Of a DNA stretch of 64,000 nt, positions 54,804 to 59,030 are shown one piece after another; position 1 is the first letter of the stretch, and each line of letters begins with the position of its first letter. Source of the DNA: an uncultured Desulfobacterales bacterium (GTDB lineage: Bacteria > Desulfobacterota > Desulfobacteria > Desulfobacterales > JAHEIW01); the NCBI GenBank assembly GCA_947259495.1, contig CAMYLV010000003.1, positions 62,001 to 126,000 on the forward strand, given 5' to 3'. Under the pieces are notes generated by a model. The model saw nothing but the letters and a program-made list of their open reading frames with translations. It was not told where the DNA came from and ran no database searches. A program made the translations under genes and the position numbers.

Positions 54804-55436
54804 ATGTTCATCACATTGGAAGGTATCGAAGGCTCGGGTAAAACGACCCAGATAGATCGGCTGGCGGAATTTCTTGAGGCCAACGGAATGAAATGCGTGA
54901 CGACCCGGCAGCCGGGCGGAACCGTCATCGGTGAAAACATACGATCGATTCTACTGAACCCGGCAAATCATACCCTGCAACCGATGACAGAATTGCTGCT
55001 CTATCTGGCGGATCGCGCGCAGCACATCGATGAGATTATCAGCCCCGCTTTGGCGGCAGGCAAAACGGTCATATGCGATCGTTATTTTGATGCGACACTG
55101 GTGTATCAGGGTTATGCCCGAGGGCTGAGTGTCCAGTTGCTTTTAGAATTGCACCAGATTTTATTTGATAATTTAAAACCGGATGTCACGCTGCTGCTGG
55201 ATCTCTCACCGCGCCAGGGGTTGGAAAGGGCCTGGCAGCAATTAAATAGCGGCCAGCGGGTGGGCCATGAAAGCCGCTTTGAAAACGAGGCCGTGGCCTT
55301 TCATAAGAAAGTCAGGACCGGCTACCTTGAGCTGGCACGTCTCGAACCGCAGCGGTTTCGCATTATCGATGCCGCCCAGAGTCCGGATCAGGTCTTCGCC
55401 GAGATCAGCAAAACACTATCATCCTTTCTCAAATAA
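54804..55436 (+). CDS. tmk: Thymidylate kinase
   Basis: 210 residues. Walker A GIEGSGKTTQ, the DR(Y/H) motif in VICDRYFDATLVYQG, TRQPGGTVIG after the P-loop and a LID region with Arg-rich LDLSPRQGLERA. It phosphorylates dTMP to dTDP. It is separated from holB by lptD and surE, unlike the usual tmk-holB order. The CysK-CysS gene follows 124 bases later. Confidence 0.96.
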   Translation: MFITLEGIEGSGKTTQIDRLAEFLEANGMKCVTTRQPGGTVIGENIRSILLNPANHTLQPMTELLLYLADRAQHIDEIISPALAAGKTVICDRYFDATLVYQGYARGLSVQLLLELHQILFDNLKPDVTLLLDLSPRQGLERAWQQLNSGQRVGHESRFENEAVAFHKKVRTGYLELARLEPQRFRIIDAAQSPDQVFAEISKTLSSFLK

Positions 55437-55560: not shown

Positions 55561-57834
55561 ATGGGCAACTCTATTCTGGATGCCATCGGCAATACGCCCC
55601 TGGTTGAAATCCAAAAGTTAAATCCGAACCCCGGCGTAAATCTGCTGGCCAAGCTTGAGTATTTTAATCCCGGTGGTTCGATTAAGGATCGCGCCGCCGT
55701 TTGGATGATCGAGACCGCCGAAAAATCAGGTGCGCTGACACACCAAAAAATCGTAATCGAGCCCACCAGCGGCAATACCGGCATTGGCCTGGCCCTGGTT
55801 TGTACCGTCAAGGGGTACCGGCTGCTGCTGGTCATGTCAGATGCAGTCAGCATCGAACGCCAGAAGATCCTAAAGGCCCGGGGAGCGGACATTCTTTTAA
55901 CCCCCGGCCATTTGGGCACCGATGGGGCCATTGAAGAAGCCTATCGCCTGGCCCGTGAAAATTCGGACACCTATTTTCTGCCCGATCAATTTAATAATGA
56001 AGCCAACTGGCTGGCGCACTACCACGGGACGGCGGAGGAGATCTGGCAACAGACCAATGGCCGAATTACCACCTTGGTGGCCACTCTGGGAACAACCGGC
56101 ACATTAATGGGCGTTTCCAAGAAATTAAAGACCTATGATCCGACCATTCAGATCGTCGGTATCGAACCGTATCTGGGCCACAAAATTCAGGGATTAAAGA
56201 ACATGAAAGAGGCCTATCGCCCTGAAATTTTTGAAAAGGAGCGCCTGGATCAAAAGCTCAATATCGAAGATGAAGCAGCTTATGAAATGGCCCGGCGGCT
56301 GGCCAGGGAAGAAGGCATATTTGTCGGGATGAGCAGCGGCGCGGCCATGGCCGGCGCCTGTAAGGTCGCCGAGGCAATGACAAAAGGCACTATTGTCGTG
56401 ATATTTCCCGATGGCGGCGAACGCTATTTAAGCACATCCCTTTTTGCCGTGCGCGATGAGATATCCCTGAAATTATTTAATCCCTTAAGCCGCAAAAAAG
56501 AAGTTTTTGAACCTCAGGTACCGGGAAAGGTCTCGGTTTATTCTTGCGGGCCGACCGCCCATGCCCGCGCTCATCTGGGAGAAATGCGGCGCATTGTGTT
56601 TGCCGATCTGATGTGTCGCTACCTGGAGTACCGCGGGTATGCGGTCCATCATTTAACCGATATCAATGATCTCGATGATAAAGCCATCAGTGGATCCGAA
56701 AAACGGGGTGTCGGTCTGGACGAATTTACTGAAGCCAATATTGTCAAATTTAAGGCGGATCTGGCCGTTTTAGGCATTACCCCTGCCAATGTTTATGCCC
56801 GGGCAAGCCAGCATGTTGATGACATGGTGGCCCTTGGCGAGCAACTGGTGCAAAAGGGCATTGCCTATGAAAAATTGCGCTCGTTATATTTTGACATCTC
56901 GCGACTGGATGTCTACGGTCGACTTTCCGGAATTGATATCAATAAAATTAAAGTAGGGGTTACGGTTGATCTGGAGAACTATGAAAAACTAAATCCGCGG
57001 GATTTTACGCTTTTTAAACGCTCCAAACTTTCAGAATTAAAGCGGGGCATCTTTGTCAAAACCCAATGGGGTAACGCCCGGCCCTCCTGGCATATTAAAT
57101 CGGCGGCCATTTCGATGAAATACTTGGGGGAATGTTTCGACATCCACACCAGCAGCCGGGAGCTGGTCTTTCCCCACCACGAAAATGAGAACGCCATAGC
57201 AGTCGCTTTAACCGGAAAGCCACTTGCCAGATGCTTTGTACACTGTGATCGGGTGCTTTTGGATGGTAAAAAATTAGATGAACAGGCGGCCGGGTTAACC
57301 GTCGCAGATTTAGTCAATATGGGATATTCTGGCCGGATCATTCGTTTTTGGCTGCTTTCCAGCCACTATCGCAAACCGATACCCTTTTCAAAAGAGCGCC
57401 TGGTTGATGCCAGGCGTGCGCTCGAGCGTCTCGATCGATGTGTTTCCAATCTGCGCTGTGTCAAACAGGGTGATGCTTATGCCGAGCTCGAACAGTTGCT
57501 TTACGACCTTAAAAACGGGTTTATGAGCGCTATGGATGATGATCTAAATATTTCAGCGGCCCTGGCGACGATTTTTACAATTGTCAAAAAGATCAACACG
57601 CTCATCCGCAAGAAGCAACTGAATTCAGCGGACGCTTCAAAGATTGTTGATGGCTTCCGCAGCATCGACGCGGTTTTGAAGGTATTTAATTTCCTTGATG
57701 CTTATGCTGACCCTGAAATACAGCGCCTGCTCGAAAAAAGAAAGCGTGCCCGCTCGGCGGCAAATTGGGATCTGGCAGATAAAATCAGAGAAGAACTCAG
57801 GTCACGCGGAATACCGGTTCAGGATCAGAGATAG
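55561..57834 (+). CDS. Fusion of cysteine synthase (CysK) with a degenerate cysteinyl-tRNA-synthetase-like domain
   Basis: 757 residues. Residues 1 to about 305 are a complete CysK: PLP lysine K42 in GGSIKDR, PTSGNTGIGLAL, GTTGTLMGV, SSGAAMAGACK. Residues about 312-757 match CysRS from SVYSCGPT (C329) through PHHENE (539-543) to the helical C-terminus. Key catalytic positions are altered: HIGN is HLGE (338-341), the WHIECS zinc Cys is S514, and KMSKS reads K571-L-D-E-Q. It may not charge tRNA-Cys normally. The CysK part should use O-acetylserine and sulfide. Upstream is tmk; no known partner lies next to it. Confidence 0.85.
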   Translation: MGNSILDAIGNTPLVEIQKLNPNPGVNLLAKLEYFNPGGSIKDRAAVWMIETAEKSGALTHQKIVIEPTSGNTGIGLALVCTVKGYRLLLVMSDAVSIERQKILKARGADILLTPGHLGTDGAIEEAYRLARENSDTYFLPDQFNNEANWLAHYHGTAEEIWQQTNGRITTLVATLGTTGTLMGVSKKLKTYDPTIQIVGIEPYLGHKIQGLKNMKEAYRPEIFEKERLDQKLNIEDEAAYEMARRLAREEGIFVGMSSGAAMAGACKVAEAMTKGTIVVIFPDGGERYLSTSLFAVRDEISLKLFNPLSRKKEVFEPQVPGKVSVYSCGPTAHARAHLGEMRRIVFADLMCRYLEYRGYAVHHLTDINDLDDKAISGSEKRGVGLDEFTEANIVKFKADLAVLGITPANVYARASQHVDDMVALGEQLVQKGIAYEKLRSLYFDISRLDVYGRLSGIDINKIKVGVTVDLENYEKLNPRDFTLFKRSKLSELKRGIFVKTQWGNARPSWHIKSAAISMKYLGECFDIHTSSRELVFPHHENENAIAVALTGKPLARCFVHCDRVLLDGKKLDEQAAGLTVADLVNMGYSGRIIRFWLLSSHYRKPIPFSKERLVDARRALERLDRCVSNLRCVKQGDAYAELEQLLYDLKNGFMSAMDDDLNISAALATIFTIVKKINTLIRKKQLNSADASKIVDGFRSIDAVLKVFNFLDAYADPEIQRLLEKRKRARSAANWDLADKIREELRSRGIPVQDQR

Positions 57835-58022: not shown

Positions 58023-59030
58023 ATGATACAACCGATTTATTTCCCCTTTACCTACGTCCCGCAGTGGGTAGCGGAGACTTTCGCTGCCGGCTTCAAGCAT
58101 TTCTGCGTCTATCAGCCCTCGGGTAAAGATGTGCCAGCTGAAATGCAGGCCTGGGTCGCAAAAAATGCGATGAACATCTGTGTGCCGGTGCCGACTGAAG
58201 ATGAAAACCTCGCTGAGGTGGTCAGGGAGTTTCAACGGTTTGCGCATCTGCACGCTGATGGCAAAAATCTCAGGACGGCGGCATTTTGGAATCGGCAAGG
58301 TGCCGTTCCATTTTTCAATGAAACTTCAGCCTCACAAATTGCTGCAGATCTGAAAAAAGACAAAGCTTCGGATGCCGGGCCGGCGCATCCGGACACCTTG
58401 CTGCGTGCGCGGGTTTTTCTCGAATTTGCCCAGGAATTCGACCGGCACAATGCGGAACTCCAGCAGGAATTGGACGTTAATGATCGACGTTCCGAAGATC
58501 TGCTAGCGAATCTGAGCGGCCCAAAAGATAACACCCCACCGGTCACCCGTCTTACGGCTGAAATCAGAGTCGATGATCCGGGTGAATACATGGCGCAGGA
58601 CCGGCTACAGGCGTGGATTCGACTGTTTATGGAAGAACCCATCGATTCGGGGCTTCTGGTGACCAGCAGTCCATCAGTTTTTAACTATCTGGTTGAGAAC
58701 CAGCCGACTGCTGAAAAGATCCTTGAATCCAAAACACTGCCGGCGAAGACGGCAAACGACGATTGGCGGGATGCATTTTTAAATCAGATAAAACACCTTG
58801 TTGAATCCGAGGGGTTGGCAGCCGGCGATGATTCCATTCAATGGCCGGCGGGTGAAAATTATTCGGCAAATCGAACACTCACACTCTATCGGTTGCCCGG
58901 CCGCAGTCCGGCAGATTTACTTGGCCGGATCTTACTGTCGTCAACCAGCGCCCAAAATACATCCAGTCAGATGCCTGAAATTAAGAATACCCTGCTCGGA
59001 CTTATCAGTCAGCGAACCGGCGGCACTTAA
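58023..59030 (+). CDS. Conserved-looking protein of unknown function
   Basis: 335 residues with AGGAG twelve bases upstream. The N-terminus is aromatic (MIQPIYFPFTYVPQWVAETF), and the middle is helical (LLRARVFLEFAQEFDRHNAE, LQQELDVNDRRSEDLLANL). The later segment LQAWIRLFMEEPIDSGLLVT and a tail with SPADLLGRILL follow. No signal peptide, membrane segment, Fe-S cysteine set or nucleotide motif is seen. No family is recognised. It lies between the CysK-CysS fusion and a ferredoxin. Confidence 0.7.
   Translation: MIQPIYFPFTYVPQWVAETFAAGFKHFCVYQPSGKDVPAEMQAWVAKNAMNICVPVPTEDENLAEVVREFQRFAHLHADGKNLRTAAFWNRQGAVPFFNETSASQIAADLKKDKASDAGPAHPDTLLRARVFLEFAQEFDRHNAELQQELDVNDRRSEDLLANLSGPKDNTPPVTRLTAEIRVDDPGEYMAQDRLQAWIRLFMEEPIDSGLLVTSSPSVFNYLVENQPTAEKILESKTLPAKTANDDWRDAFLNQIKHLVESEGLAAGDDSIQWPAGENYSANRTLTLYRLPGRSPADLLGRILLSSTSAQNTSSQMPEIKNTLLGLISQRTGGT

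Follow-up and report, generated by a model that had tools for sequence, protein, structure and literature searches.

Degenerate aminoacyl-tRNA synthetase domains are known to regulate amino-acid supply, as in HisZ, which acts with HisG, and in the HisRS-like domain of Gcn2. Cysteinyl-tRNA synthetase (CysRS) has a paralogue of its own in MshC, the cysteine ligase of mycothiol synthesis, which is devoid of the anticodon domain. A further paralogue in the order Desulfobacterales, CysRS* (gene cysS*), is described in the accessible part of PMC7609411 as active, without an anticodon domain and encoded downstream of selB*. Here we analyse a gene in a 64,000-nucleotide stretch of contig CAMYLV010000003.1 (the window) from an uncultured Desulfobacterales bacterium, in which a pyridoxal phosphate (PLP)-dependent cysteine synthase is fused to a CysRS-like half. 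We favour, tentatively and with slightly less than even confidence, the reading that the product is an active cysteine synthase carrying a pseudo-CysRS, which would have been kept to bind the cysteine tRNA (tRNACys) and would thereby couple cysteine synthesis to that tRNA.

The original prediction had read one frame joining CysK to a CysRS-like region, and its coordinates, strand and length proved exact (Table 1); the residues it named, K42, PTSGNTG, HLGE, Ser514 and KLDEQ, are all present. It had also called the synthase half a complete CysK. The PLP motifs are indeed intact, with the PLP lysine at K42, PTSGNTG at 68-74 (TSGNTG at 69-74) and GTTGT at 177-181, but this half, about 46% identical to E. 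coli CysM, scores higher against the CysM profile (TIGR01138, 359.5 bits) than against that of CysK (TIGR01139, 316 bits) and lies under both equivalog cut-offs (394.2 and 350.95 bits, respectively), while exceeding that of the cysKM subfamily (TIGR01136, 364.3 versus 344.15 bits). It also contains a loop, HKIQGLKNMKE (amino acids 207-217), that is specific to the family and largely fixed across the fusions. The CysRS-like region spans amino acids 303-756 and includes the anticodon domain; CysS_C, DALR_2 and the conserved anticodon-reading residues had gone unmentioned. When aligned with E. coli CysRS, HLGE (338-341) replaces HIGN/HIGH, KLDEQ (571-575) replaces KMSKS, and DIHTSSRE occupies positions 527-534. 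The zinc site reads C329, Ser514, H539 and E543 (E. coli C28, C209, H234 and E238), the full set of ligands being absent with Ser514 at the place of C209.

To judge how the CysRS half has evolved, we aligned 163 full-length fusions, all distinct (equivalent to about 119 once weighted at 80% identity), with 52 canonical CysRS from fetched loci plus E. coli CysRS (53 in all). L242 was dropped from the canonical set after it turned out to be the end of a fusion with a frameshift; some counts (zinc residues, entropies and motif strings) were made with it still included. At the KMSKS place, none of the 163 fusions has the pattern K[MIL][SAG]K[SAT], which 52 of 52 canonical enzymes have; three text matches in the fusions fall outside that place. 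At the HIGH place, H.G[HN] is found in 6/163 fusions versus 52/52 canonical enzymes. The residues R168, W184 and G201, fixed in canonical CysRS, are kept in 1, 0 and 0 fusions, respectively. Four motif sites were also scored together (KMSK/RS, HIGH, zinc CCH and GGD), and no fusion was canonical-like at all four, with five so at three. The CysRS half of most fusions, that of the window included, probably no longer makes cysteinyl-adenylate, to judge from these motifs.

The anticodon domain has fared differently. According to the accessible part of PMC12684709, which cites Hauenstein 2004, E. coli CysRS contacts G34 through hydrogen bonds from R427 and D436, stacking by W432 and a water network involving R423. 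This R-R-aromatic-D set is intact in 159 of the 163 fusions, three others having K for R427 and one a gap. In the window protein it is present as R727, R731, W736 and D740, with R743 and D755 at the places of R439 and D451. A conservation test over 60 columns in which canonical CysRS is fixed to at least 98%, with changes counted on a tree, separates the functional sites: the average share of fusions that keep a column is 40% for eight columns in HIGH, GGxD and KMSKS (median 15 changes), 87% for three zinc columns (median 7 changes) and 99% for five anticodon-domain columns (median 0 changes, range 0 to 2), while the remaining fixed columns vary (mean 75% kept). With the anticodon domain kept and the ATP chemistry of most members lost, this half is most simply read as still serving to bind tRNACys. 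Both the binding and a regulatory role are inferred.

An AlphaFold2 model of the window protein (mean predicted local distance difference test score, pLDDT, 86.4; predicted template modelling score, pTM, 0.62) has low-confidence stretches in the PLP-half loop 206-219 and the CysRS loop 465-478. Its CysRS half (302-757) matches 1u0b_B, from the CysRS:tRNACys complex, with Z 49.3 over 434 residues, anticodon domain covered; the best structural match is 8qhp, an entry titled CysRS homodimer, and the MshC structure 3c8z reaches Z 45.0. The CysRS half is thus predicted to keep the CysRS fold. The PLP half matches CysM structures at Z of about 39.7, those of M. tuberculosis CysM at 39.3-39.8.

Several observations point to a working synthase. 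The fixed letters of K42, SGNTG, GTxGT, DQxN and YLST are found in 163/163 fusions, position 69 being T in 150 and S in 13. We then asked which other cysteine genes accompany the fusion in 394 genomes of the phylum (completeness 90% or more), 165 of which match it at E<=1e-140. With cysE scored as TIGR01172 at E<=1e-25, a threshold at which 77 of the 273 positive genomes are also over the curated cut-off, 84 genomes have both fusion and cysE, 81 the fusion without cysE, 189 cysE without the fusion and 40 neither (Fisher p 3e-11, uncorrected for relatedness). The search for a second CysK-family match (E<=1e-40) covered 80 of the 81 fusion genomes that lack a cysE match and 80 of the 84 that have one. 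Such a second match is missing from 77/80 of the former (exceptions G399, G483 and G561) and found in 77/80 of the latter (exceptions G337, G363 and G589), so a separate cysK goes hand in hand with cysE across fusion genomes. A set of 15 genomes agrees: the fusion is the sole CysK in nine and accompanied by a second in six, and cysE scores better than 1e-45 in 6/6 genomes with the second CysK and in 0/9 without it (G092 has a match of 2.4e-31). Because the fusion is the only CysK-family match in most tested genomes where cysE is not found, it is probably a catalytically active cysteine synthase that is independent of CysE.

Where cysE is not found, the donor would probably be O-phosphoserine rather than O-acetylserine. 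E. coli CysM, in which R210 aligns with the K213 that is invariant in the fusion family, is an O-acetylserine enzyme. As C. jejuni CysM also accepts only O-acetylserine, according to the part of PMC9855970 available, the residue at this position proves nothing alone. M. tuberculosis CysM is of the O-phosphoserine type in the accessible part of PMC12910592. Bacteria related to the fusion carriers have further gaps in their amino-acid pathways: the serine steps in Desulfovibrio are treated as unresolved in the corresponding parts of PMC7311316 and PMC5764234.

Taken together, the mechanism we propose has the CysRS half, its ATP chemistry lost in most members, binding tRNACys through the retained anticodon-reading residues, and this binding would tie cysteine synthesis to the availability of tRNACys or to how far it is charged. 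The coupling could run through allosteric switching by uncharged tRNA or through a synthase held at the place of cysteine use, with O-phosphoserine as the probable donor substrate where no serine acetyltransferase is present. A bolder version, which we regard as possible but unlikely, is a synthase that, in a large group of bacteria, is governed directly by tRNACys and its charging state through anticodon reading and fed by O-phosphoserine in the absence of CysE; under the same estimate falls its boldest form, in which cysteine would be delivered to, or formed at, tRNACys by a SepRS-free bacterial equivalent of the archaeal transsulfursome. The sensing function or regulated CysK suggested in the original prediction are still the best readings.

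A number of findings weigh against tRNACys-coupled synthesis. About half of the fusion genomes, the window's own included, have cysE (84/165), mostly with a separate cysK; the own genome carries a cysE-cysK pair (L002) and thus another cysteine synthase besides the fusion. KMSRS, the commonest single string at the KMSKS place of the fusions, is kept in 18/163, along with one KPSKS (L088) and one KMSKE, and L177, L201 and L236 are near-canonical at several motif sites. The KMSRS clades, three members of which are near-canonical at further sites, may thus retain some adenylation. The complete zinc set CCHE survives in 79/163 fusions, as a sensor of free cysteine would also predict. Conservation of residues is no proof of tRNA binding, since some of them, R439 and D451 among others, may have a structural role; many fusions also have a shortened C-terminal tail beyond D451. 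The spatial arrangement of the two halves is uncertain at a pTM of 0.62. Finally, eight of 70 sampled genomes of the order have no fusion among the matches listed, and G049 and G020 carry a CysM homologue without any CysRS half. These two proteins (L240 5986-6891 and L241) are close CysM homologues, at 56% and 52% identity, and no remnant of the CysRS half was found near them in the fetched stretch.

The zinc site bears directly on an unlikely alternative, in which the pseudo-CysRS senses free cysteine independently of tRNA and exerts feedback on the synthase through the old zinc-thiolate pocket. The pocket is conserved in part: H234 is kept in 159/163 fusions, C28 in 134, C209 in 131 and W205 in 156. 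Its ligands have nevertheless been lost many times, the window's own clade included, with at least 8 changes at C28, at least 7 at C209 and at least 14 at E238, and the anticodon residues, which would be useless to such a sensor, hardly change. The zinc site thus decays repeatedly, and Ser514 of the window is one recurrent loss. The stress that the original prediction placed on the missing zinc cysteine does not generalize, given that most fusions in the wider alignment retain it, and we have dropped this loss as a defining trait of the family.

We consider it no more probable that the CysRS half serves solely as a structural or oligomerization scaffold, or that it passes on cysteine by pairing with the canonical CysRS. 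The predicted retention of the fold and the homodimer title of the best structural match are compatible with this role, as is the stretch 420-505, whose mean entropy is lower among the fusions (1.20 bits) than among canonical CysRS (1.49 bits), a sign of stronger conservation. A scaffold leaves unexplained, however, why the G34-reading residues rank among the most conserved.

Tighter involvement of the tRNA, with the PLP half acting on a seryl-type group on tRNACys as a bacterial analogue of SepCysS, appears improbable to us. The 77/80 genomes with neither a cysE match nor another CysK-family match would suit such a route, as would the retained tRNACys-reading residues, but the TSGNTG loop, which binds a free alpha-carboxylate, is intact (SGNTG in 163/163), and this counts against it. 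SepCysS has a different PLP fold, and SepRS (TIGR00470) was over its cut-off in 0/10 fusion genomes tested, the window's own included.

A similarly low probability attaches to the fusion being, at least in certain lineages, an active second CysRS and so an enzyme with both synthase and synthetase functions. In its favour are the KMSRS and KPSKS strings and the score of the window protein, which exceeds the cut-off of the cysS equivalog (TIGR00435) by 0.1 bit (340.1 versus 340). No fusion is canonical-like at all four motif sites, however, and a standalone cysS occurs in 70/70 genomes of the order, among the matches listed (the copy in G041 is cut short). L177, L201 and L236, which have KMSRS and HLGN at the ATP motifs, may have a CysRS half that is still active or was inactivated recently. 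Least probable is the MshC-like ligase of the original prediction, joining cysteine to a small acceptor to make a new low-molecular-weight thiol: the fold is similar to that of MshC, but the window protein scores 170.6 bits against the 485.1-bit cut-off of TIGR03447, the adenylation motifs are decayed in most fusions, the anticodon domain is still there, and inspection of the 24 largest neighbour families of 116 loci, mostly by eye, revealed no gene recognisable as belonging to thiol biosynthesis.

That the fusion is the sole housekeeping CysRS is ruled out by these standalone genes and by the canonical cysS of the own genome (L003, with HIGN, a WHLECS zinc motif and KMAKS). The original prediction had taken a separate cysS as the sign of a paralogue, and its discovery makes the CysRS half one. 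A query of a diverged CysRS type had suggested that most of the order has no CysRS other than the fusion, which a Pfam search refuted. In a quick tree, a single clade unites the CysRS halves of 105 fusions and separates them from 31 canonical enzymes (Shimodaira-Hasegawa-like approximate likelihood ratio test, 100); L237, on a long branch in the first tree, was omitted from the second. The own canonical cysS (1447-2895 of L003) belongs to a second, diverged type, at about 316 bits to PF01406, and may be a horizontal replacement. Fewer than half of the 70 genomes of the order have this type; the majority have one that scores about 440-480 bits.

The possibility of a frame error or chimera joining two genes can be dismissed, as single frames of about 757 amino acids are found in many genomes, single-contig ones included. 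Nearly all listed matches in the phylum span the whole query; a few are partial (e.g. G035, G301, G351 and G532), some of them sitting at contig ends or frame breaks. Within the order, 62 of 70 genomes have the fusion among the matches listed, as 60 frames of 570 amino acids or more and two fragments. Record titles of the best 80 of 420 confirmed loci name Desulfobacterales, Desulfobulbales-type families and unspecified Deltaproteobacteria, along with one Proteobacteria label and one Aminicenantes label, the latter on a contig (L062) that may be misbinned. Two fusions (L245 and L246, in G176 and G205) lie in longer frames of 862 and 819 amino acids and match the query in separate pieces, which suggests lineage-specific insertions. 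Four fusions (L189, L092, L091 and L105) have long in-frame extensions at the N terminus, which we take to be open-frame noise; that of L189, the one run against Pfam, gave no match.

The neighbourhood offers few further clues. Pfam-named neighbours of the window fusion are tmk and surE, selB being outside the search. The tmk gene is collinear in part of the order and is not thought to be part of the fusion system. Across 116 loci, no dedicated partner was found in the neighbourhoods, except perhaps the family of the downstream hypothetical protein (cluster c0), which is present in 48 loci and lies at position +1 after the fusion in 43. The 335-amino-acid protein of the window matches 47 neighbour proteins, all of this cluster. 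The family is a possible functional partner of the fusion within the order.

Table 1. Positions of the fusion gene, its domains and its neighbours in the window (aa, amino acids; ORF, open reading frame).
Feature	Position	Strand	Basis
Fusion gene, cysteine synthase and CysRS-like pseudo-synthetase	55561..57834	+	Single ORF of 757 aa, ATG to TAG; full-length homologues
PLP (fold type II) CysM/CysK domain, aa 1-297	55561..56451	+	Pfam PALP (5-284), TIGR01136, 163-fusion alignment, CysM structures
CysRS-like catalytic domain, aa 303-618, degenerate motifs	56467..57414	+	Pfam tRNA-synt_1e (316-618), TIGR00435 from 303, E. coli CysRS alignment
DALR_2 domain, aa 654-709	57520..57687	+	Pfam PF09190 (654-709)
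CysS_C anticodon-binding domain, aa 717-756	57709..57828	+	Pfam PF23493 (717-756); conserved columns
tmk (thymidylate kinase), upstream neighbour	54804..55436	+	Pfam Thymidylate_kin, cluster c1
Hypothetical protein, 335 aa, downstream neighbour	58023..59030	+	No Pfam match, cluster c0

A search of the open-access literature by title and start of abstract, a scope outside which most subscription papers lie, found no description of this fusion. Nor is it mentioned in the accessible parts of PMC2922099, a 2010 survey of synthetase-like proteins, or of PMC5424206, PMC7609411, PMC12684709, PMC8762117, PMC9976931, PMC5764234, PMC7311316, PMC9855970 and PMC12910592. If our reading is true, the fusion would connect tRNA charging with the final reaction of amino-acid synthesis at the protein level, within one polypeptide. 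Its carriers include many sulfate reducers and their relatives, many of which live in sulfide, and the fusion may offer an account of how cysteine is made in many Desulfobacterota where serine acetyltransferase is not found. In addition, the label "cysteine--tRNA ligase" is probably wrong for most fusions, even though the window protein passes the NCBIfam cysS cut-off.

Compared with known systems, the fusion shares its domain order, predicted fold and anticodon-reading residues with CysRS (E. coli CysS, 1li5/1u0b), but its KMSKS, HIGH and GGxD sites are degenerate in most members, R168, W184 and G201 are replaced, and it sits behind a cysteine synthase and coexists with a canonical CysRS. With the CysM/CysK synthases it has the PLP lysine, SGNTG and GTTGT in common, to which it adds a 450-amino-acid CysRS half and the loop HKIQGLKNMKE. 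MshC resembles it as a CysRS paralogue outside translation with the same fold; in contrast to MshC, whose chains in the structure set comprise 413-414 residues, the fusion keeps the CysS_C anticodon domain and scores far under the MshC cut-off. CysRS* is likewise a second CysRS paralogue of the Desulfobacterales, whereas the fusion retains the anticodon domain, has a CysRS half that is probably inactive, and adjoins surE and tmk. Closest in possible mode of action are HisZ-HisG and Gcn2, which also combine a degenerate catalytic site with retained tRNA-reading residues. The fusion differs from these in concerning another amino acid and another synthetase class, and in being covalently joined to the last enzyme of the biosynthetic pathway.

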